Below are positions 2,585 to 50,388 of a stretch of 64,000 nucleotides of DNA, piece after piece. The DNA comes from Bacteroidaceae bacterium. Its GTDB lineage: Bacteria > Bacteroidota > Bacteroidia > Bacteroidales > Bacteroidaceae. Each line of letters opens with the position of its first letter. The stretch's first letter is position 1. The position numbers and the translations under genes are program-made. Under the pieces are notes generated by a model. That model made no database searches, had not been told where the DNA came from, and saw nothing but the letters and a program-made list of their open reading frames with translations. Location: positions 1 to 64,000 of the forward strand of contig JAFZPZ010000075.1 of NCBI GenBank assembly GCA_017552435.1, read 5' to 3'.

Positions 2585-3406
2585 ATGAAGAATCTATTAT
2601 CTTTGCTAACATTTTGTCTTCTCATGCTGTCCTGCTCTACGAAGAGCACGGAGGTTTGTCCAGAGGAAGATTCAAGCCAGTTTGTAACCCTGACCGAAGT
2701 TGTCCCCGATGCCATTCTGGAGATACGATACTTTGGCACATACAATTTTGTGGGAACCCGCATCGACGGCTATGAGGAGCCGACGGCATTACTCACCCGT
2801 CAGGCTGCTGACAGTCTGAAGGCTGTGAGCGATGACGTGAAAGCCCGGGGCTATCGCCTGAAGATCTACGATGCCTACCGCCCGCAGAAGGGCGTTGACC
2901 ACTTCGTGCGCTGGGCTGAGAACATCGCCGACACACTGATGAAGCCCTACTTCTATCCCGACCTCGACAAGAGTGTGCTATTCGACCAAGAGTATATCTG
3001 TGCGAAGAGCGGTCATACTCGCGGTAGCACCGTTGACCTGACACTCTTCGATATGGCGACGGAGAAGGAACTCGACATGGGCGGCACCTTCGACTGGTTC
3101 GGTCCTGAGAGCCATCCCGACTTCTGCGGTAATCCAGAAACGGGAGAGTACACTGGTGGTTTAGGGGACTCGTCGTTTAGTGGTTTAGGAACAAATGTAA
3201 CATCCCCAAACGACCAAACGACCAATCACCCAATCTCCCAGAGAGCTATCACTCCCGAGCAGTTTCAGAACCGCATGGTTCTCCGTCAGGCAATGCTGCG
3301 TCATGGCTTTAAGCCTTTCGATACCGAGTGGTGGCACTTCACGCTGAAGGACGAACCATTCCCCGACACCTACTTCACTTTCCCTGTGAAGCAACTGAGT
3401 AAATGA
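2585..3406 (+). CDS. VanX-like D-Ala-D-Ala dipeptidase lipoprotein (peptidase family M15D)
   Basis: 273 residues with a lipobox (LMLSC, Cys17). The zinc site of VanX/DdpX dipeptidases is complete: SGHTRGSTVDLTL gives His144 and Asp151, and EWWH gives the catalytic Glu248 and His251; YDAYRP (95-100) is the conserved Arg region. The family cleaves D-alanyl-D-alanine, for wall recycling or nutrition; in species without van genes it is not a resistance marker. Residues ~188-219 are a Gly/Thr/Asn-rich insert encoded by short octamer repeats (3155-3240), between the zinc-binding Asp and the catalytic Glu. The end is convergent with the outer-membrane protein gene. Confidence 0.9.
   Translation: MKNLLSLLTFCLLMLSCSTKSTEVCPEEDSSQFVTLTEVVPDAILEIRYFGTYNFVGTRIDGYEEPTALLTRQAADSLKAVSDDVKARGYRLKIYDAYRPQKGVDHFVRWAENIADTLMKPYFYPDLDKSVLFDQEYICAKSGHTRGSTVDLTLFDMATEKELDMGGTFDWFGPESHPDFCGNPETGEYTGGLGDSSFSGLGTNVTSPNDQTTNHPISQRAITPEQFQNRMVLRQAMLRHGFKPFDTEWWHFTLKDEPFPDTYFTFPVKQLSK
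3155..3240. repeat. octamer repeats in frame inside the vanX-like gene
   Basis: Degenerate 8-base units: GTTTAGTG/GTTTAGGA in the first half, and AAACGACC twice then AATCACCC and AATCTCCC in the second. Related GGTCGT/TTAGTCGT units occur upstream of ruvC (13846-13877). Confidence 0.6.
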
Positions 3407-3423
3407 ACAGACGCATGAAAAAG

Positions 3424-3468
3424 CTGGATAAAACGTCAAGAGCTCGTTTTTCAGAATCGTTTTATCAG
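3424..3468. terminator. bidirectional terminator-like inverted repeat
   Basis: GATAAAACG (3427-3435) and CGTTTTATC (3458-3466) face each other between two converging genes. The right arm lies in the last codons of the minus-strand gene. Confidence 0.5.
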
Positions 3469-4659
3469 TAGGGTGGGGCTGACGCGCAGGTAGATGCCGA
3501 AGGAGAAACTGAGGTCGCCCTTGCCGGAGAGCCAGGTCTGGTAGCCCTCAACGTCGGCGCCCAGGGTATAGCCCGGCGCAAATGTGTGGTGGAAGCGAAC
3601 ATGTGCCGCTGCCGTCTGCAAGCGCCCGTAGTCCAGCCCGTCCTTCACGCTGACGCTGGAATAGAAATGACTCCCGTAGAGGCTGACGAAATGCTTCGGA
3701 CTGAAGAAGTACGACACGCCGGCATCGAGGAAGCTCCACAGCCCCAGCTCCACACTGGCATAGCCGGCAGCGCCGCTCCGGAACGGCCACAGATCGCCTG
3801 TCTGCTGATAGGCCAGCAGTCCGTCTGCCTCTGCCGTGAGGCGCCTGAGTGCCCGCCTTCCGATGTTCCACTGTGCCCCCATGCCGGCCGACGCATTCCA
3901 GATGGTCTGCACCGAGCGTTGTGCCACATTCTGCTCGCCCCCGCGATGCTGCAGGATCAGCTGAACGGGTACGTACCAATGCAGCCTGGACTGGGGCGCA
4001 TTCAGCAGGGTGCGCCATGTCGTCCCGGCGGTAAAAGCCTCCTGATGTGTGTCCTCTCGGAAGATATAGCTCTGCCAGTTCAACCACACGTCGGCATGCA
4101 GGTGCGGCCTGTCCCACAGGAGTTGGAAACCCATCTCAGGGTCCTGCGACAGGTTGGTCTCGGGATTGAAAAGTGGCGCTATGAGGCCATGATTCTGCCC
4201 GCCGTAGATGTCGCCCAGCACGATGGTGAGGTGGCGGAAGTCGGCCTGGGCACGGAACCAGGGCAACAGATGGGCGCCGCTGGTGTACTGGTTGCCCTTC
4301 CAGACGCTGATGTCGTGATAGACGTAGTTCGGGTAGCGGTTGGCCCCATTGAAGATGAGCGCCTGCAGGCCCAGCTCCAGCTTCACCTGTCTCAGTGGCA
4401 TGTAGGTCAGCTTGGGCTGCACCCATAGTCCCGGCAGCGTGTATCCGTCCGCCAGGGGGCTCGAGAACTCATTGTCGCGGAAGAAGCTGATGCTCTCCAA
4501 CTCCACTCTGAGCGCCCGCACCTGGGCCGTATCCAGACGATAGGGCGACTTCGCCAGCTGCTCCCACATGGGCTCGTTCCCCCCCTGGGGGAGTGTTTCT
4601 CCGACAACCTCCAAAGAGAACAAGGAGCAGATGACAAGGAGTCTGGCGAAAAGCTTCAT
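3451..4659 (-). CDS. predicted outer-membrane beta-barrel protein
   Basis: 402 residues: a signal peptide (MKLFARLLVICSLFSLEVVG), then alternating polar/hydrophobic strands rich in Trp, Tyr and Gly (GFQLLWDRPHLHADVWLNWQ, DAGVSYFFSPKHFVSLYGSH) and a C-terminal aromatic ending LLIKRF, all typical of an outer-membrane barrel. I do not recognise the family. A palindromic CCCCCTGGGGG element (4575-4604) is in frame just after the signal peptide (GETLPQGGNEP). Its start overlaps the DedA stop by 4 bases (ATGA), so the two are translationally coupled. Confidence 0.75.
   Translation of the reverse strand: MKLFARLLVICSLFSLEVVGETLPQGGNEPMWEQLAKSPYRLDTAQVRALRVELESISFFRDNEFSSPLADGYTLPGLWVQPKLTYMPLRQVKLELGLQALIFNGANRYPNYVYHDISVWKGNQYTSGAHLLPWFRAQADFRHLTIVLGDIYGGQNHGLIAPLFNPETNLSQDPEMGFQLLWDRPHLHADVWLNWQSYIFREDTHQEAFTAGTTWRTLLNAPQSRLHWYVPVQLILQHRGGEQNVAQRSVQTIWNASAGMGAQWNIGRRALRRLTAEADGLLAYQQTGDLWPFRSGAAGYASVELGLWSFLDAGVSYFFSPKHFVSLYGSHFYSSVSVKDGLDYGRLQTAAAHVRFHHTFAPGYTLGADVEGYQTWLSGKGDLSFSFGIYLRVSPTLLIKRF
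4575..4604. repeat. palindromic C/G element in the outer-membrane protein gene
   Basis: CCCCCCCTGGGGGAGTG within the coding sequence, giving the residues LPQGG just past the signal peptide. Confidence 0.6.
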
Positions 4660-5279
4660 TTCTTTACGCCCTTATATATAAGGTAAAGGACGACAGTCAC
4701 GCCGAGGACGAGCATCGCAATCTTCAGCTCACCGCTGTACTGCGCTACCTTCTCCTCCAGCTGACCGCTGTAGTAATGGCCTATGTACCAGCCCATCCCG
4801 GCCAGGATGGAGTTCCAAAGGCTGGCGCCCAAGGTGGTGTAGAGAAGGAATCGGCCCAGACCCATGCGTGCCAGGCCCGCCGGAATGCTGATGAGCTGCC
4901 GCACGGCCGGAACAAGGCGTCCGAAGAATGTCCCCACGGCTCCATGCTCGTCGAAATAACGCTCTGCCCGTTCCACCTTGGCACTGTCGATGAGACACAT
5001 GTGCCCCAGCCGGCTCTCCGCAAACTTATATACGAGCGGACGGCCCAGGTAGCGCGCCATATAGTAGTTGACAAGGGCGCCGATGCATGCTCCCACGGAG
5101 GCACAGAGCACCACGAGGAAGACATTCAGCTCGCCCGTCGTAGCCGCCTTATAGGCAGCAGGCGGCACTACCACCTCGCTGGGGAAGGGGATGAAACTAC
5201 TCTCGATGGCCATCAGCAGGGTGATGACCCAGTAGTTGAGGTGCTCCAGGCACCACGCTATGAAAGGAATGGACTGCAT
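4656..5279 (-). CDS. DedA family (VTT domain) membrane protein
   Basis: 207 residues, all four or five hydrophobic segments of the DedA family, and both hallmark motifs: ESSFIPFPSEVVVPPAAY near the N-terminus and GRLVPAVRQLISIPAGLARM in the middle, with the charged residues linked to ion-coupled lipid scrambling/undecaprenyl-phosphate or phospholipid translocation in this family. It acts in the inner membrane. It lies in the same minus-strand run as lysA and a glycosyltransferase gene, 36 bases after the latter, with a heptamer array in the gap. Specific substrate cannot be told. Confidence 0.93.
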   Translation of the reverse strand: MQSIPFIAWCLEHLNYWVITLLMAIESSFIPFPSEVVVPPAAYKAATTGELNVFLVVLCASVGACIGALVNYYMARYLGRPLVYKFAESRLGHMCLIDSAKVERAERYFDEHGAVGTFFGRLVPAVRQLISIPAGLARMGLGRFLLYTTLGASLWNSILAGMGWYIGHYYSGQLEEKVAQYSGELKIAMLVLGVTVVLYLIYKGVKK

Positions 5280-5285
5280 GTTTTA

Positions 5286-5313
5286 AGTGAAGAGTGAAAA
5301 GTGAAGAGTGAAG
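5286..5313. repeat. heptamer array, 4 x AGTGAAR
   Basis: AGTGAAG AGTGAAA AGTGAAG AGTGAAG, filling the gap between the glycosyltransferase stop and the dedA start. Confidence 0.9.
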
Positions 5314-5315
5314 AA

Positions 5316-7018: not shown

Positions 7019-7055
7019 GTCAACAATCTTTCTTTATGTGAGGCAGGAGGAGCGT

Positions 7056-8369: not shown

Positions 8370-8372
8370 ATG

Positions 8373-8405
8373 TTAAGTTAAGAGTTAAGAATTAAGAGTT
8401 AAGAA
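8373..8405. repeat. heptamer array, TTAAGAG/TTAAGAA
   Basis: TTAAG then TTAAGAG TTAAGAA TTAAGAG TTAAGAA between lysC and the ftsE-like gene; it supplies the latter's stop codon. Read on the minus strand it gives TAA every 7 bases, hence stops in all three frames. Confidence 0.9.
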
Positions 8406-9057
8406 TCAGGGAAGCATTTTCGCAGCGATATACCGTCCCGGGGAAGTACTCGGGCCACTGCATATTATGCGTGCTTAGAATAACGGCAGTATGGTTCTGC
8501 CTTCGTATCTCATCGAGCAAAGCCAAGATAAGTTCGCCGTTCTCGGCATCGAGGTTACCTGTCGGCTCATCTGCCAGAATGACCTTGGGATTGTTCAAAA
8601 TAGCCCGAGCGATACAAATGCGTTGCTGTTCGCCGCCCGAAAGTTCAAATATGTATTTATCTTTCTTGTCTGCAAGCTTTACCATCTCGAGTGCCTCGTC
8701 GATGCGCTTTGTACGGTCTTCCTGTCGCTTCCACCCGGTGGAGCGGAGCACGAAATCGAGGTTACGGTTGACGGTACGGTCTGGCAGCAGTTGGAAGTCC
8801 TGAAAGACAATACCCATCTGCCGGCGGAGTGTAGGCTGATTCTTGGTCTTAAGATGAGTCATATCGAAGCTCAGCACTTCAGCGCTAGCACCTTCTACAG
8901 GTACTTCTCCGTAAATGCTTTTGAGAAGCGACGACTTGCCGCTGCCTACGGGTCCGGTGAGATAGACCATCTCGCCTTCCTCTACGCAGAAATTCACCTT
9001 GCCCAGAACCAGATGTTCGCCCTGATAGATGTCGATGTCGGTGTAGTTTAGTATCAT
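8392..9057 (-). CDS. ftsE: FtsE-like ABC transporter ATP-binding protein
   Basis: 221 residues, single ABC ATPase: Walker A GPVGSGKSS (35-43), Q-loop FQDFQLLPD, signature LSGGEQQ (139-145), Walker B VILADEPTGNLD (159-170) and a switch His in LSTHNMQW. The sequence matches the FtsE/LolD clade; LLPDRTVNRNLDFVLRSTGW is typical of FtsE, which works with FtsX at the septum to activate wall hydrolases. No ftsX is adjacent; in Bacteroidetes the two are often apart. It follows hisIE by 18 bases. The last residues (LILNS) are encoded by the heptamer array. Confidence 0.85.
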   Translation of the reverse strand: MILNYTDIDIYQGEHLVLGKVNFCVEEGEMVYLTGPVGSGKSSLLKSIYGEVPVEGASAEVLSFDMTHLKTKNQPTLRRQMGIVFQDFQLLPDRTVNRNLDFVLRSTGWKRQEDRTKRIDEALEMVKLADKKDKYIFELSGGEQQRICIARAILNNPKVILADEPTGNLDAENGELILALLDEIRRQNHTAVILSTHNMQWPEYFPGTVYRCENASLILNS

Positions 9058-9075
9058 CTCACTATTTACAATTTA

Positions 9076-11748: not shown

Positions 11749-11769
11749 CGCAGTCTATCATTTGGGCTG

Positions 11770-11777
11770 CAAAGATA
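11770..11777 (-). promoter_or_regulatory. -7 box of the his operon
   Basis: CAAAGATA on the plus strand is TATCTTTG on the minus strand, 22 bases before the hisH start, in the only gap over 50 bases between modF-like and lysA genes. Confidence 0.6.
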
Positions 11778-11833
11778 CGCATTTTATATCATAAAAGGAA
11801 GCGAAATGCGGGAAAAGAATGCTATTTTGTTAA

Positions 11834-13294
11834 TTATAGACCCAGCGAGAGCCTGTGTGTGATACAGTCGGGGAGTTCCTCTTCGTAGTGTGTGACCATT
11901 ACGAGTGTTTTATGAGGCCTCTGACAGAAATGCTTGATAATCTGGCGCACCAGGCTGCGGTGTCTGTCATCGAGGCCATGCAGGGGCTCGTCCAGGATAA
12001 GCAATTCCGGGTCTTTCACAAAGGCACGAGCCAACAAGCAGAGACGTTGCTCGCCACTGCTGAGGTGCAGGAAGGTGGTATCTGCCAATGCCTCCACTCC
12101 GAATACGCGCATCCAGTCGAGACAGATTTGCTTCTGCTCGGGTCTGGGACGAACATAGAGGCCAACGGAATCATTCAGACCACTTGCCACGACATCGATG
12201 GCAGGGATGTCCTTGAGGTAAGCGCGATGCATTTCGGGGCTGACATAGCCGATGTGCCGTTTGATCTCCCAAATGCTCTCGCCAGAACCACGCCGGTGTC
12301 CGAATAGTTCGATGTCGCAGGCGTATGCTTGTGGATTGTCGGCGCAAACAAGGCTGAGCAGAGTGCTCTTGCCCGAACCATTAGGACCAGTCAGTGCCCA
12401 TCGCTCTCCCTCGTGAACGGTCCAATTGAGGGAACGCAGAATGGTATGCTCGCCATAGCGGATGCTGACATCTCGAAAACGCAGTATCTCGCCACCATCA
12501 GCAGGATAGAAACCGGATTCCGAGAGGTTCCGGACAGGCAGGTTCGTTATCCAGCGCTTCACTTCATCACTCAGCTCGGGAGCAGGGGGGGCGGCATACA
12601 CCCTCCGGTACTCGGCGAGAGGCATCTTGGGAAGCAGCCGAAGCCTCTCGACAGGTAGGACATGCGTGATAAAGTTGGGAATATCGTTGCGCCCAGCCAG
12701 AATGAGAATTATGAGGAGTTCCGTCTCATGCGCCAATGTCTCCAGCAGATGGCGGAACTCCCGGCGGGTAGGGGCATCCAGGCCAATAAAGGGGTTGTCC
12801 AGGATAAGGACACGTGGATTTGTGCCCAAGGCTTTGGCCATCTGGAACTTGCGCAGTTCTCCACTACTCAACGAGATGATGTGCTTCGGGGCCAGTTCAT
12901 CCAGGCCGAACATCTTGGAGAAAGGAAATTCCGGGAGAAGCTGTCCTACTGTCGGAGCATCGTCGGCGATGTCGTGCTGATTCCATCTTTGCTGATAATA
13001 GTAGGTGCTGTCTTGCACGCCATAAGAATCACGAAACGAGATATACTTCAGGTTCTCGCTGACAAGACGAGAATCGTTGGGCGAGAAGCCGTAATGTACC
13101 TCATTGAGCAGCAGAGGATAATGACCAGTCAGGATTTCCACCAATCGTGTCTTTCCTGCAGCATTGTCGCCCACAATAGCAATCTGTTCACCTCGCTTTA
13201 TTTCCAAGTTGATAGGCTCCGCCATCCTCCAAAGAGGGTGACGGGGAACGCCATCAGTGACACTTATTATTGTTCCGTATTCTTCACTCTTCAT
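11834..13294 (-). CDS. tandem ABC ATPase, ModF-like
   Basis: 486 residues with two ABC ATPase domains and no membrane segment. Domain 1: Walker A VGDNAAGKTR (41-50), signature LSSGELRK (142-149), Walker B VLILDNPFIGLD (162-173) in which the catalytic Glu is replaced by Asn. Domain 2: Walker A GPNGSGKST (303-311), signature LSSGEQRL, Walker B LLILDEPLHGLD intact. The architecture matches ModF (PhrA), linked by name to molybdate transport but of unproven role. Start and first residues (MKSEEY) come from a heptamer array that overlaps the ruvC stop by 11 bases. Confidence 0.85.
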   Translation of the reverse strand: MKSEEYGTIISVTDGVPRHPLWRMAEPINLEIKRGEQIAIVGDNAAGKTRLVEILTGHYPLLLNEVHYGFSPNDSRLVSENLKYISFRDSYGVQDSTYYYQQRWNQHDIADDAPTVGQLLPEFPFSKMFGLDELAPKHIISLSSGELRKFQMAKALGTNPRVLILDNPFIGLDAPTRREFRHLLETLAHETELLIILILAGRNDIPNFITHVLPVERLRLLPKMPLAEYRRVYAAPPAPELSDEVKRWITNLPVRNLSESGFYPADGGEILRFRDVSIRYGEHTILRSLNWTVHEGERWALTGPNGSGKSTLLSLVCADNPQAYACDIELFGHRRGSGESIWEIKRHIGYVSPEMHRAYLKDIPAIDVVASGLNDSVGLYVRPRPEQKQICLDWMRVFGVEALADTTFLHLSSGEQRLCLLARAFVKDPELLILDEPLHGLDDRHRSLVRQIIKHFCQRPHKTLVMVTHYEEELPDCITHRLSLGL

Positions 13295-13302
13295 TCTTCA
13301 CT
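13279..13302. repeat. heptamer array at the ruvC/modF-like junction
   Basis: ATTCTTC ACTCTTC ATTCTTC then ACTCTAT (minus: GAAGAGT/GAAGAAT). It encodes both the RuvC C-terminus and the start codon and first residues of the next gene. Confidence 0.85.
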
Positions 13303-13844
13303 CTATCTTTGTTCTTCTTGACGAAGTCGGCCCAACCGCGATACTTGTGGTCGCTCTCGGGCTTGCCCATCTGCAGAAAATGGCAGTAAGCCGCTCCGAG
13401 AGCATCTGTTGCATCGAGGAACTTACCCATCTCTTCCTTCTCGACATGGAGCATACGTCGCAGCATATCTGCCACTTGTTCCTTACTGGCATTGCCGTTG
13501 CCTGTGATTGCCATTTTTATCTTTGACGGTGCATACTCGGTGATAGGCACTTGCCGCTGGATAGCAGCTGCAATAGCAACGCCCTGGGCTCGTCCCAACT
13601 TGAGCATACTCTGTATATTCTTGCCGAAGAATGGCGCCTCGATAGCCATACAATCGGGCAAATATCCCTCGATGATGCTGCAGATGCGTTCGTGAATATG
13701 TCCTAACTTGAGGTAGGGATCTGGATACTTGCGTAGGTCTATGACGCCCAACGCGAGCATCTCAGCCTTTTTGCTTTCCACACGCAATACGCCATAGCCC
13801 ATGATATTGGTTCCTGGGTCAATGCCCAGAATGATTTGCTCCAT
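13284..13844 (-). CDS. ruvC: Holliday junction resolvase RuvC
   Basis: 186 residues. ILGIDPGTNIMGYGV supplies the first catalytic Asp (Asp9), MAIEAPFFGKN the Glu, and FLDATDALGAAYCH the final Asp pair. It cuts four-way junctions with RuvAB; ruvA is in this window at 49716, unlinked. The C-terminal tail (RVKNEE) is encoded by heptamer repeats that overlap the next gene. Confidence 0.96.
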   Translation of the reverse strand: MEQIILGIDPGTNIMGYGVLRVESKKAEMLALGVIDLRKYPDPYLKLGHIHERICSIIEGYLPDCMAIEAPFFGKNIQSMLKLGRAQGVAIAAAIQRQVPITEYAPSKIKMAITGNGNASKEQVADMLRRMLHVEKEEMGKFLDATDALGAAYCHFLQMGKPESDHKYRGWADFVKKNKDRVKNEE

Positions 13845-13902
13845 TTGGTCGTTTTGCAGATTAGTCGTTTAGGGATTTCTTTCGTGCAAAAGTACAAAGA
13901 AA

Positions 13903-13930
13903 TTGAGAAATGAGAAATGAGAATTAAGAA
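13903..13930. repeat. heptamer array, ATGAGAA type
   Basis: ATTGAGA-A, ATGAGAA, ATGAGAA, TTAAGAA upstream of ruvC and before the divergent DUF1573 gene. Octamer-like TTAGTCGT units lie next to it at 13846-13877. Confidence 0.8.
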
Positions 13931-14000
13931 TTTATGTAAAAAAACATGCTTTTAATGTGAAAAAATGCAATCAAATGCATGTCATTTAATGAATAAGGTG

Positions 14001-14008
14001 TATCTTTG
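14001..14008 (+). promoter_or_regulatory. -7 box of the DUF1573 gene
   Basis: TATCTTTG, 18 bases before the start codon at 14026. Confidence 0.65.
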
Positions 14009-22321: not shown

Positions 22322-23644
22322 ATGAAAGATGCCATTTCTGCCCGAAAAGGACTTCTCGCATTGAGTCCGCTTATTGTCTTCCTGCTGCTCTACTTGCTGT
22401 TGAGCCTTGTTGCGGACGACTTCTACGCGGTTCCACTCACGGTGGCCTTCCTTGCGGCTTCCCTCTACAGTCTGTTTATCATCAGAGGCGAATCCATAAG
22501 TCGGCGATTCGCCCATCTCGCAGAAGGCGCAGCCCAGCCAGGCGTGATGCAGATGCTCTGGATTTTCATTCTGGCAGGAGCCTTTGCAGCGACAGCCAAG
22601 CAAATGGGAGCCATCGATGCCACAATAAGCTTGGCCCTGACGTCAGTACCGCCGGGTTTTGTCCTGAGCAGCCTCTTTCTGGCCTCATGTTTCATCTCGC
22701 TCGCTACAGGTACCTCTGTCGGTACCATTGCAGCCCTCGTCCCTATTGCCGGCAGTATGGCCGAACAGACGGGAGCCAGCACTGCGATGATGGTGGCGAT
22801 TGTGGTTGGCGGAGCATACTTCGGAGACAACCTGAGCTTCATTTCCGACACGACGATTGTGGCGACACAGACGCAAGGATGCGAGATGAAGGACAAGTTC
22901 CGCGCCAACATCTGGATTGCCATGCCTGCTGCTCTCATCTGTCTGGCACTCTACGCCTGTTTGCCCGGCGTCAATGTGGAGCAGGGACATCCGGGCGAGG
23001 TTTCCTATCCTGCCATCATACCATATATATATATTATAGTGGCGGCGCTCTGCGGCATGAATGTGATGCTGGTGCTGGCTTCGGCAACGGTTCTGGCCGG
23101 TGCGATAGGCATAGTTTCCGGTGCCCTGACACCTTTCGGTTGGCTGCGGGCGATGAACGACGGCATCATGGGTATGAGCGAACTCATCATCGTGACGCTC
23201 CTGGCAGCAGGCCTGATGCAGGTTATCCGTCGAGCAGGTGGTATCGACTGGCTCATGCAACTGTTCAACCGTCGCAAGGGCAGCCGCAGGAAAGCTGAAT
23301 TGAGTATGGCGACGATGGTGGTGCTGACGGACTTCTGCACGGCAAACAATACGATTGCCATCCTGAGTGTCGGCCCCTTGGCGAAGCAGTTGGCCGAGCG
23401 CTACGGGATTCCTGCAAAGCGGGCAGCCAGCATCCTCGATACCTTCAGCTGCTTGGCTCAGGGCATCATTCCCTACGGCGCACAGATGCTCATCGCCAGC
23501 GGACTGGCAGCCGTCAATCCCCTCGACATCATCCCCTACCTCTATTATCCCTACATATTAGGAGCAGTGGCAATAGTGTATATAATAGTGGACCCCCTAA
23601 CCCCCTTTAGGGGGAATAACGTGAAAATGAAAAATGAAAAATGA
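22322..23644 (+). CDS. NhaC-family Na+/H+ antiporter
   Basis: 440 residues with 10-12 hydrophobic segments. The NhaC-type signatures are present: SLATGTSVGTIAALVPIAGSMAEQ, GGAYFGDNLSFISDTTIVATQTQG and, in the second half, VLTDFCTANNTIAILSVGPLAKQLAERYGI, the inverted repeat partner. It exchanges cations across the inner membrane. A TAACTTCG element (22310-22317) ends only 4 bases before ATG, so if it is the promoter the message would be nearly leaderless. The last residues (DPLTPFRGNNVKMKNEK) come from a palindromic element and a heptamer array, and the stop overlaps the rsmG start. Confidence 0.9.
   Translation: MKDAISARKGLLALSPLIVFLLLYLLLSLVADDFYAVPLTVAFLAASLYSLFIIRGESISRRFAHLAEGAAQPGVMQMLWIFILAGAFAATAKQMGAIDATISLALTSVPPGFVLSSLFLASCFISLATGTSVGTIAALVPIAGSMAEQTGASTAMMVAIVVGGAYFGDNLSFISDTTIVATQTQGCEMKDKFRANIWIAMPAALICLALYACLPGVNVEQGHPGEVSYPAIIPYIYIIVAALCGMNVMLVLASATVLAGAIGIVSGALTPFGWLRAMNDGIMGMSELIIVTLLAAGLMQVIRRAGGIDWLMQLFNRRKGSRRKAELSMATMVVLTDFCTANNTIAILSVGPLAKQLAERYGIPAKRAASILDTFSCLAQGIIPYGAQMLIASGLAAVNPLDIIPYLYYPYILGAVAIVYIIVDPLTPFRGNNVKMKNEK
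23591..23615. repeat. palindromic element at the nhaC 3' end
   Basis: CCCCCTAACCCCCTTTAGGGGG type, in frame (DPLTPFRG). Confidence 0.8.
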
Positions 23645-23648
23645 AAAA
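23621..23648. repeat. heptamer array at the nhaC/rsmG overlap
   Basis: GTGAAAA then three TGAAAAA units. Each unit offers ATG and TGA, giving the nhaC stop (23642-23644) and the rsmG start (23634). Confidence 0.85.
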
Positions 23649-26210: not shown

Positions 26211-26244
26211 ATTTTGAATTTTGAATTTAGTTATTTTGAATTGT
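26211..26244. repeat. heptamer array, ATTTTGA type
   Basis: ATTTTGA ATTTTGA ATTTAGT then ATTTTGA, between the epimerase start and the symporter stop; it includes the latter's stop codon. Confidence 0.75.
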
Positions 26245-31120: not shown

Positions 31121-32113
31121 CTATTTTTTGTTTCTCCTGATTCGCTGAGGAATGCCGCGCTGCGGATGGATGGGGTTCGGGTTCTCCTTTACGACGTTTA
31201 TCTTGCGCTCGCGAGGCTGATTCTCGCGCATCTGTTGCGGTGTGAGGCGTTGATTGGGAGCAAAAGGCAAGGAATCGAGGTCGAGTGAGTCGGCAGCGAG
31301 AGAGTCACTTTTAATTTTTAATTCTTCCTTTTTAACTTCCTTGTGCATGCGAACGAGCTTTATCTCGCTGACCAAGAGGGGCTTTGGCGGGTCGGCGTTG
31401 TTGACCATCGGCAGATAGATGAAGCCTGTGATGGAGCGCAGGTTTAGGGTGTCGAGCCCTTTTCCGGGAGTGTGCTTCATCTCGTTCTTCAGACTGTTGC
31501 GAAGGAGGTCGGTTACTGCAGCAACGGTGTCTTTGTCGTAGTAGAAGTTGAGCAGAGCGATGGCTTCGTTGTTCATGGAACGTCCCACAAACTGCGTCTT
31601 GAAGCGCCAAATGAAGCTGTCGCCTGGTCGGAACGTGGTGTCGGCCTTCATTTGGAAAGAATAGACACACCCGACGCGGTTGGGTAAAACACAAGCGAAG
31701 TCCTTGCCCAGCCAGATATTGGCGGTGTCGCCTTCGTTGGTGAGGGTTGCGAAACGGTCCCGGTTGGCCGCTGCTGCCTCCAGTCCCATGCGTTCGGCCT
31801 GCGCTTGTACGCGATTTACCACATTATTGTATATGAACGTGAATTGCTCTGCGCGACCAGAATAATAAATCATCGACGAGTCGAACTCCGCTTCCGTGAT
31901 GCGGTGCTTCTTGAATACCGCCTGAATGTATTTGTAGCGTGTGATATCAGGGTTTTCGCCCTGTGCCTCGGCCATTCCCTGAGCCAGATGGAAATCTACG
32001 AGCACATCCGTCATCTTGTCCTCGTCCAGAATGCCACTCGGCAAAGACGGAGAACAGGCCTGTAGGCATAGGATTAAGGAAAAGAGAATAAGGATTAGAT
32101 GGGCTTTCTTCAT
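31121..32113 (-). CDS. DUF4296-domain lipoprotein
   Basis: 330 residues from ATG 32113, which overlaps the lspA stop by 4 bases; the longer frame upstream is only lspA read in another frame. Lipobox LCLQAC. The N-terminal domain (GILDEDKMTDVLVDFHLAQGMAE...YKYIQAVFKKHRITEAEFDSSMIYYSGRAEQF) is the helical DUF4296 domain. The C-terminal half is beta-rich, then a charged tail that includes heptamer-coded EVKKEELKIKSDS. As it follows the lipoprotein signal peptidase gene, it may be processed by it; its role is unknown. Confidence 0.88.
   Translation of the reverse strand: MKKAHLILILFSLILCLQACSPSLPSGILDEDKMTDVLVDFHLAQGMAEAQGENPDITRYKYIQAVFKKHRITEAEFDSSMIYYSGRAEQFTFIYNNVVNRVQAQAERMGLEAAAANRDRFATLTNEGDTANIWLGKDFACVLPNRVGCVYSFQMKADTTFRPGDSFIWRFKTQFVGRSMNNEAIALLNFYYDKDTVAAVTDLLRNSLKNEMKHTPGKGLDTLNLRSITGFIYLPMVNNADPPKPLLVSEIKLVRMHKEVKKEELKIKSDSLAADSLDLDSLPFAPNQRLTPQQMRENQPRERKINVVKENPNPIHPQRGIPQRIRRNKK
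31308..31336. repeat. heptamer units in frame in the DUF4296 lipoprotein
   Basis: CTTTTAA TTTTTAA TTCTTCC TTTTTAA C, coding on the minus strand for EVKKEELKIKS. Confidence 0.55.
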
Positions 32114-33120: not shown

Positions 33121-36100
33121 TTAGTTTTTGCTGACGGAAAGTTCTGTGCCGAGGCTGATGCTGTCGGCCAATACTTGTGATGCGATATAGTCGCGGAACT
33201 TGCTGAGGCAAGTGCGGTTGTCGTCGCTGTCGGGCAGCGTGACGCTGATGCGGTCGGTTATCTCGAAGCCGCTGTCCTTGCGAAGCGTCTGAATGCTGCG
33301 GATGAGTTCGCGGGCAATGCCTTCCAGGCGCAGGTCCTCGGTGATGGTCAGGTCGAGGGCAACGGTCAGCGTGCCTTCGTTGGCAACACTCCATCCCGGG
33401 ATGTCCTGGCTGAAGATTTCGATGTCCTCGTGGTCAACGGTCACCTGTTCGCCTGTGTCGAGTGTGAGAGGCAGGTGCTCCTTGGCCTCCAGCTCGGCAA
33501 TCTGCTCTTGACTCATGGCCAGAACTGCGGCATTGACGCTCTTCATCAGTTTGCCGAACTTCTTGCCCATCGTGCGGAAGTTGCACTTCACCTGCTTGAC
33601 GAGCATTCCCTGTGCTTCTACAAACTCCATCTCCTTGACGTTCACTTCGTCCAGAATGAGTTGTTGCATGGCCTGGATGCGCTGCTGCTGTTCGGCGCTG
33701 GTGGCGGGGATGGCGATGCGCTGCAAGGGTTGCTTCACGACGATCTGCTCCTTCTTGCGGAGCGAGAGAATCATACTTGTCACCTGCTGAGCAAGTGCCA
33801 TCCGCTGTTCCTGCTCCTGGTCGATCTTGGCATCGTCGTAAGTGGGGAACTTGGCCAGATGTACGCTCTTGCCGTCGCCTCTGCCGGTTGCCTCACAAAG
33901 GTCGCGCCAAAGGCGGTCGGCATAGTAGGGAGCGATGGGAGCCATGAGGCGAGCCACCGTCTCCAGGCAGGTATATAGTGTCTGGTAGGCACTCAGTTTG
34001 TCGAGGCTCATAGCAGAACCCCAGAAACGCTTCTTGCTGAGGCGCACAAACCAGTTGCTGACGTTATCTACCACGAAGGTCTGAATGAGACGACCGGCCC
34101 GTGTGGGCTCGTAGTCCTCGTAGCACTGATCCACCTCGCGGATGAGACTGTTCAGGCAAGAGAGAATCCAGCGGTCCATCTCCGGGCGCTCGTTCATCGG
34201 CACGTCCGGCTCTTCGTAGCACCAGCCATCCACGTTGGCGTACATCGTCAGGAAGGAATAGGTCTGGAAGAGCTTGCCGAAGAAGGTGCGGGTCACCTCC
34301 TGCACGCCTTCTACGTCGAATTTCAGGTTGTCCCAAGGTGCGCTGTTCGTAATCATGTACCAACGTACTGCATCGCTGCCGTACTGTTCGATGGCACCAA
34401 AGGGATCAACGGCATTACCCAGACGCTTCGACATCTTCATGCCGTTCTTGTCCAATACGAGTCCGTTGCTGATGACTGCCTTGTAGGAAACGCTATCGAA
34501 GACCATTGTGGCAATAGCATGCAATGTATAGAACCAGCCGCGTGTCTGGTCAACACCTTCCGCGATAAAGTCGGCGGGAAATGCTATGCCCTTGTCGAGC
34601 AGTTCCTTATTTTCGAAAGGATAATGTATCTGAGCGTATGGCATAGCGCCCGAGTCGAACCAAACGTCAATGAGGTCGAGTTCGCGCTTCAAAACGGCTC
34701 CGCTTTCACCCACGAGCCAAATCTGGTCAACGTATGGGCGGTGCAGGTCGATGCGGTCGTAGTTCTCCTGGCTCATATCGCCAGGCACGAAGCCACGTTC
34801 CTTTAATGGGTTGCTTGGCATCACGCCGGCTGCAACAGCCTTTTCTATTTCATTGTAAAGTTCCTCTACGGAACCGATGCATATCTCTTCACGAGTGTCT
34901 TTGTTGCGCCAAATTGGCAACGGAGTGCCCCAATAGCGGGAACGTGAGAGGTTCCAGTCGTTGAGGTTCTCGAGCCACTTGCCAAAGCGACCTGTACCGG
35001 TACTCTCGGGCTTCCATAGAATAGTGTTATTGAGTTCCATCATGCGCTCCTTAGCCGCCGAAGAACGGATGAACCAGGAGTCGAGGGGATAGTAGAGGAC
35101 GGGCTTGTCGGTACGCCAGCAATGGGGATAATTGTGGACGTGCTTCTCGATGCGGAAGGCTGTGCCTTCGTCTTTCATCTCGATACACATCTTCACATTG
35201 AGGTCCATCTCCTTGTTCGCTGCCTTCTCATCGTACTTTCCACCCACGTTGAACTTGGGGTCGTATGCATTCTTGACGAAGTCGCCGGAATGATGCCAAT
35301 AGCTTTCATTCACGGAGGTCTGCACGAATTCGGCATCCATATCGTCCTTCACAAAATACTTGCCTGTGAAGTCAACCATAGGACGTGTATCACCAGCCTT
35401 GTCGATGATGAAGAGGCTTGGGATGCCAGCATCTTTAGCCACCTTGGCATCGTCTGCACCAAAGGTTGGAGCGATGTGTACGATGCCCGTACCGTCCTCG
35501 GTGGTAACATAGTCGCCGGGAATAACACGGAAAGCTTCTGCACTCTTATCAACAACCTTTCCGTCCTCCAAAGCACAGGGTTTTACCCAAGGGAAGAGTT
35601 GTTCGTACTTCATGCCGACAAGGTCAGTACCCTTTCCTCGCCACAGAATCTCAAGCTCCTTGCCTTCCTCTGCTTGGAAGTATGCAGAGAGGCGAGCCTC
35701 TGCCAAGATGTAGATAGCCTCCTCGCCACTATAGGGATTGTTGCCCTTAATGGCAACATAGTCAATCTTTGGCCCAACGCAAAGGGCAGTATTCGAGGGC
35801 AAAGTCCAAGGGGTTGTCGTCCAAGCCAAAATGTAGACAGGCAGAGCCTCGGAATTTTGAATTTTGAATTTTGAATTGTTTTGAACTGTGCCGTTACCGT
35901 CGTGTCCTTCACATCGCGATAGCAGCCGGGCTGGTTCAGCTCATGACTGGAGAGGCCTGTTCCGGCAGCAGGAGAATAGGGCTGGATGGTGTAACCCTTA
36001 TAAAGGAGGTCTTTCTGGTAGAGTTGCTTCAGCAGCCACCAGAGTGTCTCGATGTATTTGTTATCGTAGGTGATGTAGGGGTGTTCCATATCCACCCAAT

Positions 36101-39547: not shown

Positions 39548-39573
39548 CGTGCCGCTATCATAATTATTTAATA

Positions 39574-39600
39574 TTCCCCCTAAAGGGGGTTAGGGGGTCT
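39574..39600. repeat. palindromic element between nhaD and the helicase gene
   Basis: TCCCCCTAAAGGGGGTTAGG type; it ends at the nhaD stop codon. Confidence 0.85.
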
Positions 39601-40998: not shown

Positions 40999-41007
40999 AG
41001 CTTTGAG

Positions 41008-41035
41008 TTAAGAGTTAAGAATTAAGAGTTAAGAA
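41008..41035. repeat. heptamer array upstream of nhaD
   Basis: TTAAGAG TTAAGAA TTAAGAG TTAAGAA, the same pattern as at 8378-8405, 10 bases from the nhaD start codon. Confidence 0.9.
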
Positions 41036-41130
41036 TTAAATTCCTGCTCTTAGGCCTTCATTTTGAGGACAAAATTAGTTAAAAAACATCAAAACCACAA
41101 AGAATTCATTGCTATTTCTCACAAAAGTCC

Positions 41131-41138
41131 TAATTTTG
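41131..41138 (+). promoter_or_regulatory. -7 box of the gene at 41146
   Basis: TAATTTTG, 7 bases before the ATG; the leader would be very short. Confidence 0.5.
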
Positions 41139-41145
41139 TGCCGTT

Positions 41146-41664: not shown

Positions 41665-41701
41665 TCGGTTAGAGAGTAGGGCGGAAGACTTCTGTTATAC
41701 C

Positions 41702-47700: not shown

Positions 47701-49537
47701 TCTCTTCGGGCAGGTAGCTCAGGTAAACGCCTGTCGAGTCGCTTTGGTACTTGATGTCGAGGCGGAATTTGTCGCTCATCACTCTCTGCGTGCCCAGATA
47801 ATAGACATTCTTCATCATCAGGCGCCATGTTGGCAGAATCGGACTGCCGGAAGTGCCCTTCAACAGTTTGACGAAGAGTGCTTTCGAGTTGTCTGTGAGG
47901 TCGCTGGCGAATTCACCCACCTGATAGGTCGTTCCCATGTAGGTGTATTCGTAGGCAACGGCCAGGACATCATCGACTTGCAGGGTGCTGGAGAGGCTGA
48001 CATAACCTAGGGCGTTGTTGACGGTATATTCGCTGGTGGCGAGCTTTCGTGCAGACTGCAGTTTCTCATAGTCAATGCTACCGTGGAATTCATCTCCGCC
48101 TCCGATACCGTCCAGGACGGTTGTGGCCTGTGAGATGTCACGCGCATCGGGATAACTGTTGACGAGGGTCTCGTACTCGTCGTTCGAGCGGTTGCTGGGC
48201 ACGTTGATGCCATTGTTTATCCATAGGCCATTGTAGATGTAGGTCGGTTCGCCCAGGTCGGCCAAAGCGATGAGGTTGCGGTTGTTGTCGGTCTTGCCGC
48301 TCTTGTTGGTGACCCAGATCTCGACGCGCTTGATGTTGATACCGCTGGAGATTGTAGGTAGCGTCTCCATGTTCTTGTCGTACTTCTCGCGGAAGAAGTG
48401 CGAGAGGAAGAAGTGCCGGTTCTCTTCGTAGTTCGTTGCGCTGAATTCGTAGTTGGTGGTTTGCGCGCCGCCTTTGCTGTTGACGCTGCTGGTGGCACTC
48501 TTCTTCTGGCTGACAACCGACTGGATCTTCAGCTTTCCGAACTGCACGTCTGTACGCAAGCCGAAAAGGCTGCTGACGCCTGGCACGAGGCTGATGTTAC
48601 TGGGGAAGGAGACATTGCCGGCCTCGATGAGCTTGACGATTTCGTCCTCTTTACCGTCGTATTTGAGCTTGAGGTTCTGTTGGTCGTAGTTGAAGGTGGC
48701 CTGGGTGTTATAGTTCAGGTTCAGGTTGATCTTGTCGCCCACTTTACCGTTCAGGCTGAGGTTGATTTTTTCGTCGAAGTCGAATCCGACGGTCTTGCGG
48801 CGCGAAGCGGCCAGGGCAGGGTTGTTTACCTTTTTTGAGTTGATGCCTATTTTGAGTTCGGCACTGCCCTGTGTCTTGATTTGTACACCGCCAGGACCGA
48901 AAATCTTCTCTGCCGGTCCCAGGTCGAAGTGCATGTCGGTAAAGTCGAACTTGTTCTTTCCCGATGTCTCGAAGGCCTCCTCGTTCTTTTGCTTCCAGTA
49001 CTGTTGCATACTGTTTTGCAACGACCATTTCTGGTATTCCTCGGGTGTCATCAGTACCGGAGCATTCAGGAAGCTGGTTGCTGTACCCAGGGTGTAGCCG
49101 GACCTGCCCGGCAGAAGGCTGCCGGAGGTGGCTCCTGCTGCGCCAGTCGAAGAGGCTTGTCCCGTTGTGCTTTGGTTCCGGGTGCCGGTATTTCTGTTGG
49201 TGCTTGCGCTCTTGCTGGCACCTTGACCTTTTCCGGTGGTTTCACCGGAATTGGAAAACGAAGTGCCGATTGTGTAGGTGTTGTCCTTCTCGTCGTAGAT
49301 GACTTCGGTCTTCAGGTTGTCCGGGTCATTCAGGTCGGCTGTCTTCTTGCGAACGGACTTCTCGTCCGGAGTACCGGTCTTGCGAACCGAGTAGCGAGGC
49401 TTACCGTTAGTGACAGTATCAGCCGGAGCAACAGACTCATTTGCCATTGATCGTTGACCATTGACCATTCCCATTGCTCCCAGCATATTGATGGCCAGCA
49501 GAATCGCTAGAACTAATATGACTTTTCGCGCGCTCAT
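41702..49537 (-). CDS. sprA: T9SS outer-membrane translocon SprA (Sov)
   Basis: 2611 residues. Length and sequence (PGRSGYTLGTATSFLNAPVLMTPEEYQKWSLQ, FDLGPAEKIFGPGGVQIKTQGSAELKIG, GKVGDKINLNLNYNTQATFNYDQQNLKLKYDGKEDEIVKLIEAGNVSFP, and repeated barrel strands to the C-terminus DFGMTMKFSLTR) identify SprA/Sov, the 36-strand barrel that carries type IX cargo across the outer membrane. Residues ~1830-1900 are a Lys/Glu-rich insert (KRTEKENENKAKKAAKEKEK). Heptamer repeats (TGGTCAA) code for GMVNGQRSMANES right after the signal peptide. It is divergent from ruvA, a neighbour pair I recall from other Bacteroidetes. Confidence 0.97.
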   Translation of the reverse strand: MSARKVILVLAILLAINMLGAMGMVNGQRSMANESVAPADTVTNGKPRYSVRKTGTPDEKSVRKKTADLNDPDNLKTEVIYDEKDNTYTIGTSFSNSGETTGKGQGASKSASTNRNTGTRNQSTTGQASSTGAAGATSGSLLPGRSGYTLGTATSFLNAPVLMTPEEYQKWSLQNSMQQYWKQKNEEAFETSGKNKFDFTDMHFDLGPAEKIFGPGGVQIKTQGSAELKIGINSKKVNNPALAASRRKTVGFDFDEKINLSLNGKVGDKINLNLNYNTQATFNYDQQNLKLKYDGKEDEIVKLIEAGNVSFPSNISLVPGVSSLFGLRTDVQFGKLKIQSVVSQKKSATSSVNSKGGAQTTNYEFSATNYEENRHFFLSHFFREKYDKNMETLPTISSGINIKRVEIWVTNKSGKTDNNRNLIALADLGEPTYIYNGLWINNGINVPSNRSNDEYETLVNSYPDARDISQATTVLDGIGGGDEFHGSIDYEKLQSARKLATSEYTVNNALGYVSLSSTLQVDDVLAVAYEYTYMGTTYQVGEFASDLTDNSKALFVKLLKGTSGSPILPTWRLMMKNVYYLGTQRVMSDKFRLDIKYQSDSTGVYLSYLPEESLKNTILLRAMNLDRLDAKNNEHPNGQFDFVEGYTISKGRIIFPVVEPFGEHLAKWIGDPVLADKYCFRELYDSTKTVAKQIAEHDKFMLTGRYKGTNAGEIDLGVTNVARGSVIVTAGGTTLTENTDYTVDYNMGRVTIINQSLLDAGTNISASVESNDTYGMQRKTMLGFNVDYEINKNFTIGGTLMYLSEQPLTTKVSMGNEPLKNTLWGLHISWKKESQWLTNIIDKLPLIQCTQPSFISFNGEFAQLVAGQNHSVQGDASYLDDFESSSIKSSLTQPTYWSISSTPSMFAESKLTADATYGYNRSLLAWYYVDPIFTRRSSTLTPSHIKSDLEQLSSHYVREVYERELYPQKSLNTYTSTSGLNVLNLAFYPQERGPYNLTTDVDQNGHLLHPEESWGGMMRKLDNTDFEAQNIEYIEFWMMDPFIYKHNQPGDHGGDLYFNLGEVSEDILKDGKKFFESGMPVDGNPQYYTEGYWGRIPNSSSVTYAFNNEGGARAKQDVGLNGLNDEEERNFGLYANYIQQMQGKVSQTVFDSIYNDPANDNYHYYRGTDFDNLQMSILNRYKRINMPQGNSADSDTRPEAYETAWKVTPDVEDINQDYTLNEYEKYYQYHVSIRPEDMVVGRNHIADMRTASVKLRNGNTEECTWYLFRIPLEEYESKEGNIRDFTSIRFMRIFMTGFREETVLRLATLDLVQGNWRTYQQPLYSGEAHTGESGTLEVSTVCIEENNDKKPVNYVLPPGITRITDPSQAQLVEANEQAMCMVARNLSGNESKAVYKNCNYDMRQYKHLQMYVHANALAENITSTTDGECSVFIRLGSDYKSNYYEYEVPLKLTPEGYYDTYSANGCLAVWPSENMIDINFDIFTSLKKQRNSQASIGVAAMNRLFSTYDDNHPNNRISIMGNPTLGEVKTIMIGIRNNSGKTKSVEVWANELRLQEFSNSGGWAAQGNLQVQLSDLGSVNASAKIITAGFGGIEQSVEQRKNEDNLNYSITTNFDLGRLLPEKAKLTFPMYYSYSKEKISPKYNPFDTDMLLDDAFDALADDHQRDSLRSLTTHTETSKNLSFSGVRLNISTPKHPMPYDPANFTFGYSRSTQSTEGETTVYEHELNWKANINYSWSPNWKAWEPFKNLKGKSKWLDIIKAQNLAFAPQSITFSTDMNRNYYELQERDLENPDDLSSLPATFSQNWTWNRNFSLKWDIFKALHFSFQSGTRAEIEEPYTQINKDLYPDHYQAWKDSVKHSLLHFGRPLDYSQNVQISYKIPLEKIPALDWTSSDISYTSNYTWKRGAERVGRPSLGNTIGTQRNINVNGKLDLEKLYNHSPFLREANKRFSAANARAGANQKRTEKENENKAKKAAKEKEKDNRKKAEQESMETGEPVDSILAKGKGQNLPGKQSNAAGISTKKKPENKGFVQEITLYPDSDLVIAHGQKSKRIRVTARDSSGFAYNIKFKKVDENNIRIVKTPVDTTNVRLNVVALPKLSEQNWYGLAQTAARFLMMVRNVSISYRNTYNLSVPGFLPEIGDMLGQKRMNGMFTPGVDFAFGFVGDSYLDHAKERGWLIGSDSVATPATIAQTEDVQVKMTLEPFSDFKIDLNMSRTDNRNKSIQYMYGTPPTHSGSFNMTTISIGSAFASPGSASDGYYNKTFQKFREYLDVYQQRVESRYQGVQYPAGTGINGTFNPENGTVNKYSADVMVPAFLAAYTGGGTSGSLDIFPSLLKMLPNWSINYKGLSTLPWVRDHFKSVNLTHAYKSIYAVGSYNSYSSWVECMGTGGLGFIQNTTSGSYSPNSLYDVSTVSINESFSPLIGLNATLNNNMTFKLEYKTTRVLNLSMTSAQLTETGSKDFVIGWGYKINDFNLSSLLRSKKASEQVAKNTKAKGKTPNSNERENSNAATQSGRSGSKQKIAHDLNLRFDFSIRNQSAIKRDLQTNLCEATSGNMAIKTSAQVDYTMSRMVTLSLFYDRQRSEPLLSSSSYPTITQDFGMTMKFSLTR
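49441..49473. repeat. heptamer units in frame at the SprA N-terminus
   Basis: Minus strand: TGGTCAA TGGTCAA CGATCAA TGGCAAA, coding GMVNGQRSMANES after the signal peptide. The same TGGTCAA unit occurs in ruvA. Confidence 0.8.
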
Positions 49538-49620
49538 GTCTTAATATTAACGTATGCGCCACATAATTTATTGTATTAATAGCAGTATTTCTGCATGTTT
49601 TTGTCGATTTTGCCAAATCT

Positions 49621-49651
49621 TTAACCATTAACCATTAACCATTAACCATTA
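49621..49651. repeat. heptamer array, TTAACCA x 4
   Basis: Four exact TTAACCA units between sprA and the ruvA promoter. Confidence 0.9.
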
Positions 49652-49656
49652 TTTCG

Positions 49657-49664
49657 TACCTTTG
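49657..49664 (+). promoter_or_regulatory. -7 box of ruvA
   Basis: TACCTTTG, 51 bases before the ruvA start, between two heptamer arrays. Confidence 0.6.
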
Positions 49665-49674
49665 CAAAAATATT

Positions 49675-49710
49675 TCTTAACTCTTAATTCTTAATTTTAA
49701 TTCTTAATTC
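49675..49710. repeat. heptamer array in the ruvA leader
   Basis: TTAACTC TTAATTC TTAATTT TAATTC TTAATTC, ending 5 bases before the ruvA ATG. Confidence 0.8.
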
Positions 49711-49715
49711 AATAC

Positions 49716-50318
49716 ATGATTGAATATCTCAAAGGAACTCTTGCCGACCTCACGCCCACTCTTGCTGTTGTCGAGTGTCATGGGGTAGGGTATGGCGTAA
49801 ATATCTCCCTGAATACTTTTTCTGCCATCCAGGGCAAACAGGAGGTGAAACTGTGGATTAGCGAGTCGATTCGTGAGGATGCCTACCAGCTCTGGGGCTT
49901 CAGCACTCGGGCCGAGCGCGAGCTTTTCGTGCTCCTTACGAGTGTGAGCGGCATCGGCGCAAGTACCAGCCGCGTGATTCTCTCATCTATGACTGTTTCT
50001 GAACTGGCGGGCGTTATCAGCGAGGGAAACGACAAGATGCTCAAGTCGGTAAAAGGTATAGGTCCGAAAGCCGCACAGCGCATTATTGTTGACCTCCGCG
50101 ACAAGATTGGCTCTCTTGGCATCCAGGCAGCATCGCCTTCAATGGTCAATGGTCAATGTTCAATGATTAATAAGGAAGTGATGGACGAAGCTGTCGCAGC
50201 TCTCACGATGCTTGGATTCAGCCCTGCTCCTGTCCACAAAGCCGTTCAGCATATACTTACCGAAGAGCCCGATGCACCCGTCGAGCGCGTCATCAAACTG
50301 GGCTTGAAAATGCTGTAA
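49716..50318 (+). CDS. ruvA: Holliday junction branch-migration protein RuvA
   Basis: 200 residues: OB-fold N-terminus ([32 protein letters not shown]), double HhH motifs ([15 protein letters not shown] and [19 protein letters not shown]), and the RuvB-contacting C-terminal domain ([24 protein letters not shown]). It binds four-way junctions with RuvB. The flexible linker between domains II and III ([15 protein letters not shown]) is encoded by a TGGTCAA heptamer array. Confidence 0.97.
50143..50170. repeat. heptamer array in frame in ruvA
   Basis: TGGTCAA TGGTCAA TGTTCAA TGATTAA; encodes part of the domain II-III linker. Confidence 0.85.
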
Positions 50319-50345
50319 GGACCCTCCAACGCCCTTTAGGGGGAG
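50319..50345. repeat. palindromic element between ruvA and cysQ
   Basis: GGACCCTCCAACGCCCTTTAGGGGGA type, starting at the ruvA stop. Confidence 0.7.
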
Positions 50346-50353
50346 TTTTCTGA

Positions 50354-50388
50354 TTTTTCAATTTTCAATTCTCAATGTTCAATGTTCA
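50354..50388. repeat. heptamer array at the cysQ start
   Basis: TTTTTCA ATTTTCA ATTCTCA ATGTTCA ATGTTCA. The last unit gives the cysQ start codon (50382). Confidence 0.85.

Follow-up and report, generated by a model that had tools for sequence, protein, structure and literature searches.

According to passages of PMC4679880 (citing Mrazek 2007), no category of longer repeats is as abundant in most genomes as the heptanucleotides; heptamer arrays have been described there in Bacteroidetes as well. Two described systems resemble the arrays treated here. The TAACTGA arrays of Beggiatoaceae, Cyanobacteria and five Bacteroidetes (MacGregor 2015, passages of PMC4679880) also have a 7-base unit, lie between genes, carry stops in all frames on one strand and sometimes run in frame inside genes, while the GGGNATC arrays of Xanthomonas and Nostoc are likewise intergenic heptamers, many per genome, at positions conserved in relatives (passages of PMC4692102). 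Both the function and the overabundance of heptanucleotide arrays are treated as open in the passages of this literature that we consulted. Here we describe the period-7 arrays in 64,000 nucleotides of a Bacteroidaceae bacterium (assembly GCA_017552435.1, contig JAFZPZ010000075.1, positions 1 to 64,000; from here on the window) and in further parts of its genome. Their main regularity, overlooked in a previous sequence-only reading of the window, is a phase-locked position just upstream of the -7 promoter box TAnnTTTG, which suggests that repeat DNA may have been taken over as working promoter sequence.

The analysis covered 464 kb of this genome (G000; 3.50 Mb in 129 contigs, 88% complete), namely the window and 20 stretches of 20 kb. 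Arrays were called with Tandem Repeats Finder, at a score of at least 30 for the coordinates listed in the window and of at least 38 for the 464-kb count. Exact runs of at least 10 matches numbered eight for period 7 in the window, none for period 6 and one for period 8, with a mean of 0.1 period-7 runs in ten order-3 Markov controls; in the 464 kb there were 57 runs of period 7, three of period 6 and 16 of period 8, and one order-4 Markov control contained none of period 7. At the score of 38, 91 of 197 arrays in the 464 kb had period 7, none period 6 and 14 period 8, and the 16 arrays of the control sequence included none of period 7. Extrapolation by proportion gives about 690 period-7 arrays for the whole genome. 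The arrays are short, mostly 24-46 bases with 4-5 copies.

The window-wide family of constant period which the sequence-only reading had proposed is borne out by these run and array counts, and its own reservation, that period 7 might be no commoner than period 6 or 8, falls away. Fifteen of the 18 places named in it have a period-7 row (5286, 8376, 13281, 13898, 23624, 26211, 28396, 31309, 35852, 41005, 49444, 49621, 49674, 50139 and 50355), positions 14575 and 19578 have none, and the array at 20284 is a weak period-8 array instead. The array at 35852, which had been placed inside a gene at 35853, is intergenic under the present gene calls, and near 3155, where the family was said to begin, there are period-8 arrays. 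Such period-8 arrays (CCAAACGA) lie at 3206-3240 and also in the ruvA leaders of two relatives (L070 and L075).

Genes were called with a simple hexamer caller, not Prodigal, and an array was counted as inside a gene if it lay at least 30 bases from both gene ends. Although 87% of the 464 kb is coding, only 12 of the 91 arrays are inside genes and 79 are not (33 of these overlap a gene edge), which agrees with the proposal that the arrays fill gaps. Twenty abut a -7 box and 34 are at a stop codon, 15 of the latter at a start as well; a start codon alone marks 17, and eight have some other intergenic place. The previously claimed placement at gene junctions holds in so far as the arrays are intergenic; within the gaps there is a weak preference for stop codons (30 of 75 intergenic arrays against 22.2 expected by within-gap permutation, reached in 1 of 300) and no significant one for start codons (31 of 75 against 26.4, reached in 44 of 300).

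The association with the -7 box is much stronger. The box was defined as a match to the consensus TAnnTTTG, not as a mapped transcription start, the within-gap permutation test using TAnnTTTG[CT]; offsets are numbered from the first T of the box, which Flavobacterium numbering puts at -12, so that offset -21 here equals -33 (passages of PMC6847099). An array adjoins the upstream edge of the box in 21 of the 75 intergenic arrays, against 4.0 expected by permutation (0 of 300), an excess of about five-fold, and AT-matched intergenic windows lead to an expectation of 4.4 (0 of 300). The result was replicated in two other genomes, with 23 of 69 arrays against 2.6 in G005 (0 of 300; AT-matched control 2.9) and 14 of 50 against 3.4 in G122 (0 of 300; AT-matched control 2.6). 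Arrays of period 8-11 adjoin the box in one of 34 cases in G000 (0.6 expected), none of 29 in G005 and none of 20 in G122. Smaller samples gave 3 of 11 against 0.6 in G012 and G024 together (1 of 300), 5 of 13 against 0.8 in pooled close pairs (1 of 300) and 6 of 45 against 1.6 at 35 named loci (0 of 500). These loci were kept from 42, seven being removed as coming from genomes sampled already; they overlap the phase set described below at several ruvA loci, three of which (L205, L207 and L209) give 7 of 8 promoter arrays. Seen from the promoters, arrays are present at 22 of 117 promoter-like sites in G000, 25 of 99 in G005 and 23 of 113 in G122 (totals including partly covered sites). At offsets -38 to -9 an array occupies 15-19% of promoter-like sites, and at -2 to +15 no more than 0.1%, as compared with an average of 4% for intergenic bases.

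Most promoter arrays span about -38 to -6. Array lengths are alike in all site classes, so the boundary at -38 follows from the typical length, and a fixed length as a promoter signature was rejected. In 70 array promoters of the three genomes T is found at -35, -28, -21, -14 and -7 in 80, 84, 87, 91 and 73%, respectively, and when the arrays were rotated none of 1000 rotations matched this phase in G000, G005 or G122. Some arrays at divergent promoters entered these counts twice, once per strand. The initial phase set included 30 ruvA loci, 13 of them hand-picked; neither the position test nor the phase test depends on the ruvA evidence, and G005 and G122 are the unbiased replications of the phase test, being sister species and hence not independent of each other. 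In both of them the phase is kept by arrays which end at or before -8 (n=8 and n=6). A fixed position and phase relative to TAnnTTTG, as would mark an upstream element of sigma-ABfr promoters, is found, the phase excepted in the G000 arrays that end at or before -8. TTG at -25 to -17 occurs in 7% of the 70 array promoters as compared with 44% of 250 array-free ones, and at -60 to -52 in 27% as compared with 14%; sites partly covered by an array (five in G000, three in G005, one in G122) are omitted from this comparison and from that of the flanks below. A T at every seventh base means that there is a T near the usual -33 element although TTG is absent. An intrinsic 7-base periodicity of ordinary promoters was considered as the seed of the arrays and rejected, lag-7 identity in array-free promoters being 0.288 against 0.309 after shuffling.

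The ruv genes of the window offer two examples. The putative -7 box of ruvA (TACCTTTGC, 49657..49665, plus strand), recognised by its sequence with the consensus in the passages of PMC6847099, is preceded by the array (TTAACCA)n at 49621..49651 (plus strand, score 62, offsets -36 to -5) and followed by (TTCTTAA)n at 49674..49710 (plus strand; Tandem Repeats Finder and sequence), which makes up most of the ruvA 5' leader. On the minus strand, the putative -7 box of ruvC (TACTTTTGC, 13886..13894; RuvC by Pfam) lies 50 bases before the gene with an array upstream of it at 13897..13932. The promoter slot of ruvA is filled by an array in G000, G125, G076 and G114, with three kinds of unit.

We think it about an even chance that these observations reflect 7-base arrays born by slippage, slowly turned over and retained both as filler and as upstream halves of promoters. 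The arrays would arise by tandem duplication in a 7-base register, where we infer slippage, and would persist in free sequence, whether between genes, at gene ends or in protein linkers. An array that happens to stand just upstream of a -7 box may then be kept as the upstream half of the promoter where its phase fits, filling about -38 to -7 with sense-strand T at -7, -14, -21, -28 and -35, and RNA polymerase would use this ladder of T.

Several results weigh against this explanation. The majority of the arrays (71 of 91) have no adjacent -7 box, and the six G000 arrays ending at or before -8 show no phase lock (520 of 1000 rotations). The association with the box is weak in G016 (3 of 11 against 0.9; 10 of 300) and in G020 (3 of 16 against 1.7; 60 of 300), none of the three intergenic arrays of G032 is at a box, and at the 35 named loci arrays of period 8-11 are mildly enriched too (3 of 32 against 0.7; 12 of 500). 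At ruvA, where a first comparison of 30 loci had used plus-strand rows only and the check was redone on 42 oriented loci (G114 not in the set), a -7 box is present within 130 bases in 35, and just two of these 35 (G125 and G076) have a period-7 array in the slot; at others there is a T-rich stretch, or the leader contains repeats of period 8 or 9. The strong flanks of the -7 box in array promoters could also mean that no -33 element is needed and that the array merely fills a gap. Least well explained is the narrow lexicon of units, which is common to all site classes, so that promoter selection alone cannot account for it; copying between arrays would explain it better.

The main rival on function is neutral filling beside strong -7 boxes, a possibility which we take seriously, if with more doubt than belief. 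Slippage would favour 7-base units, these would be unconstrained upstream of a strong extended -7 box, and the T phase would come from merging with the T tract. Indeed, G precedes the box with a frequency of 0.76 in array promoters versus 0.57 in the array-free ones, and C follows it with 0.87 versus 0.73; stops, starts and linkers are array-filled as well, and, according to passages of PMC4679880 that cite Mrazek 2007, slippage at the scale of the polymerase footprint has been put forward for units of this length. Neutral filling does not, however, predict that the enrichment at the -7 box exceeds both AT-matched windows and within-gap permutation with period 8-11 arrays lacking it in G000, G005 and G122, nor that arrays stopping short of the T tract keep the phase in G005 and G122 (not in G000), and a narrow lexicon would not be expected from random seeds.

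This lexicon consists of 30 dominant units among the 91 G000 arrays. Pairs of arrays with the same unit number 185, whereas 13 are expected from GC-matched intergenic 7-mers (maximum 33 in 1000 draws). The core NN[AG]T[TG][AGT]A (NN-RTKDA), drawn by eye from G000 and a few relatives and then counted, matches 76 of 91 arrays in G000, 62 of 88 in G005 and 49 of 60 in G122, compared with 39, 35 and 24 in composition shuffles. The unit depends weakly on the site class, with 57 within-class pairs against 44 in G000 (60 of 2000 shuffles) and correspondingly 270 and 415 of 2000 shuffles in G005 and G122. It could be that array segments, or cassettes of array plus promoter, spread by recombination or as mobile promoters. 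Such copying would explain why the same 30 units serve in 35 of 53 arrays of other species (4 expected), in 60 of 88 in G005 and in 40 of 60 in G122, why identical 20-base arrays stand at nine places, why pieces of a single G005 array with its promoter, 34-63 bases in length, come back at many places in G122, G137 and G128 (among the matches listed), and why the array family is swapped at the same site between sister species. On the whole we consider it unlikely: the likeness beyond the array and the promoter consensus is usually short, so that convergence can produce it, and no donor element was identified. A bolder form of our explanation, in which about one fifth of the lineage's promoters would have exchanged the -33 element for interchangeable in-register 7-base arrays with T at every seventh base as the sole demand, and a lineage-wide process would keep writing arrays from a small lexicon into gaps, seems to us quite improbable.

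A stop triplet on at least one strand is present in the commonest unit of all 91 arrays, and in 91% of the unit-shuffled control. Three-frame stops on the sense strand occur mainly where a reading frame enters the array, that is where the array covers the stop codon, and are forced by this construction, so that the stops do not look like the purpose of the arrays. The stop-cassette function was rejected on the shuffled control and on the origin of the sense-strand bias.

The history of single sites could be followed in close relatives. G005 and G122 are 93% identical over 55 kb, and 11 of 93 arrays are comparable. Of six promoter arrays five keep length and unit family and one is swapped for another family; of five other arrays two keep both, and in the remaining three the family is swapped, a palindrome of equal length takes the place, or a 66-base composite holding the array is absent in G122. 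An in-gene array of G005 (L104:19191) is absent in G122. Between G012 and G024 two arrays are kept, one differs by several copies and one has diverged within its family. In this comparison of copy number between species at 92-93% identity, at few sites, the apparently slow turnover does not look like fast microsatellite slippage.

Very unlikely, in our view, is that the arrays act as landing strips on leaders for a nucleic-acid-binding protein of the cold-shock or S1 type, as suggested for TAACTGA repeats, for which passages of PMC4679880 report one CspB per heptamer. Some arrays do form 5' leaders (49674-49710), but start codons are not significantly preferred within gaps and the promoter arrays lie upstream of the region that would be transcribed from the -7 box. 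A mobilisation in the manner of REPIN/RAYT, dispersed short palindromic intergenic repeats, in which a RAYT (Y1) transposase would move composites of arrays and CCCCCTTTAGGGGG palindromes, is extremely unlikely: a palindrome-array-palindrome composite at 23593-23695 has a relative in L028 and the 66-base composite of G005 is missing from G122, but no Y1_Tnp match was found in G000 (88% complete, on which RAYT-driven spread was rejected), G005, G016 or G020, the distribution of Y1_Tnp, with matches in 30 of 61 genomes, does not by eye track the abundance of arrays, and CCCCCTTTAGGGGG-type palindromes lie within 60 bases of only 6 of 91 arrays in G000, 2 of 88 in G005 and 3 of 60 in G122.

Among the genomes sampled, only some members of one genus show the period-7 excess. 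When one unit family was searched for by pattern in 61 genomes, there were 0 to 162 matches within the genus and 0 to 2 in 24 genomes of other families of the order. Stretches of 100 kb contain 10 period-7 arrays in G016, 26 in G020 and none in G004, and in 66 kb of G032 period 8 is commoner (seven arrays against two). Pieces of 0.4 to 20 kb from 20 genomes of other families, 273 kb in all, contain 53 arrays; period 7 is found in 4 of these, which is no excess. The named relatives are nearly all metagenome-assembled genomes of Prevotellaceae, Bacteroidaceae or Bacteroidales, many of them labelled as ruminant-derived.

The remaining arrays of the window show the variety of sites. Within ruvA, (TCAATGG)n at 50139..50165 (plus strand) is translated in frame as SMVNGQCSM in the linker between the HHH and C-terminal domains of RuvA; the linker is a different one in relatives, L070 and L089 carrying a CCCCTTTAGGGG-type palindrome at this place. 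The same unit at 49444..49469 (minus strand) is also in frame (MVNGQRSM), just upstream of a trimmed gene call and after the signal-peptide-like start of the long reading frame 41702-49537. An array at 50355..50390 (plus strand) supplies the start codon of gene 50382-51191, and one at 13281..13304 covers the ruvC stop codon. At 5286..5314, (AGTGAAG)n separates minus-strand genes for a glycosyltransferase 2 and a VTT-domain protein. The unit TTAAGAGTTAAGAA is repeated over the stop codon of an ABC ATPase gene (8392-9057) at 8376..8406, and it is the 20-base core of this array that is found exactly at nine places in the genome; it is repeated again at 41005..41039 between divergent genes, six bases from the start of a citrate-transporter-like gene. 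The minus-strand gene 26231-28639 has (ATTTTGA)n at its end (26211..26247) and (TTTTGAA)n inside (28396..28426). A weak array, (TTTTAAT)n with a score of 33, is inside the minus-strand gene 31121-32044 (31309..31335), and (GAATTTT)n at 35852..35877 lies between genes, 49 bases ahead of where the minus-strand gene 33121-35802 is called to start. The composite at 23593..23695 consists of a palindrome, (AAAATGA)n at 23624-23661 and an inverted palindrome; by translation it codes for the end of a Na+/H+ antiporter and the start of RsmG, and it is 82.5% identical to L028:1969-2064 over 103 aligned positions.

Other dispersed elements were seen beside the arrays. The palindrome CCCCCTTTAGGGGG with its flanks is found at 24 loci in the 464 kb, including 50320-50349 and 23593-23619 of the window, both between genes and in coding sequence (LTPFRG at the C terminus of the Na+/H+ antiporter, LPLKGGGG at the N terminus of RsmG, PPTPFKG in the linker of the L070 RuvA). 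A roughly 40-base element, two parts of which resemble hairpins (GATGCTTTAGCACCAAGGCGCG...CGCGGAA), is present in both species (L025:3850-3894, L013:4232-4274 and, in G005, L153:6971-7007), and another, TAGGGTCTCTGTTTTCGGTTACGTAACTATGTAACC, at four or more places (at least), including L021:10772-10807, L018 and L010. Inverted pairs of heptamer arrays 14-57 bases apart, able to form long hairpins and possibly hairpin terminators, occur at L056:18128-18264, L057:9195-9294, L058:13229-13321, L059:9054-9142 and L010:15237-15332; some pairs in G020 are GC-rich (GGGGCAAGGAGC). A 22-base tandem unit (AACTTAACGTGCCAAGTTGGGC) is found at L106/L107 (G097/G128), in an intergenic stretch almost wholly replaced between the sister species, and 22-base arrays are also common in G020 and the named loci.

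With a period that is commoner than chance predicts and commoner than periods 6 and 8, and with a mainly intergenic location, the arrays belong to the heptanucleotide class of long simple sequence repeats. The novelty suggested by the sequence-only reading is therefore partial: the kind of array was already known, also from Bacteroidetes (passages of PMC4679880), and a literature search on Prevotella with heptanucleotide or 7-bp repeats, covering few subscription papers, gave no match, as did some searches on promoters. They share dispersal as short intergenic elements with REPIN/RAYT, and palindromes sometimes flank them, but their unit is a tandem heptamer and no RAYT was found in G000. The GGGNATC arrays are G-rich quadruplex formers, whereas the present units are mostly AT-rich, and the passages of PMC4692102 show no connection of the GGGNATC arrays with a promoter element. 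The TAACTGA arrays have one unit, mostly next to start codons (passages of PMC4679880), as opposed to about 30 dominant units and a marked preference for the upstream side of the -7 box here; TAACTGA is not among the 67 units listed for the 91 arrays, which do not belong to that family, defined by this unit beside start codons. The sigma-ABfr promoters of Bacteroidetes (-33 TTTG, -7 TAnnTTTG) have the identical -7 box, and Flavobacterium likewise has a weak -33 motif together with prominent AT-rich motifs; the passages of PMC6847099 mention no periodic 7-base ladder in place of the -33 TTG. With phase-fixed arrays at about one fifth of promoter-like sites, the question why heptamer arrays are over-represented becomes testable: either repeat DNA is being taken into promoters on a large scale, or promoters determine where repeats are born. 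The phase-locked promoter use of heptamer arrays, which the literature examined does not describe, appears new, and it bears on promoter recognition by the Bacteroidetes RNA polymerase where the -33 element is weak or missing.

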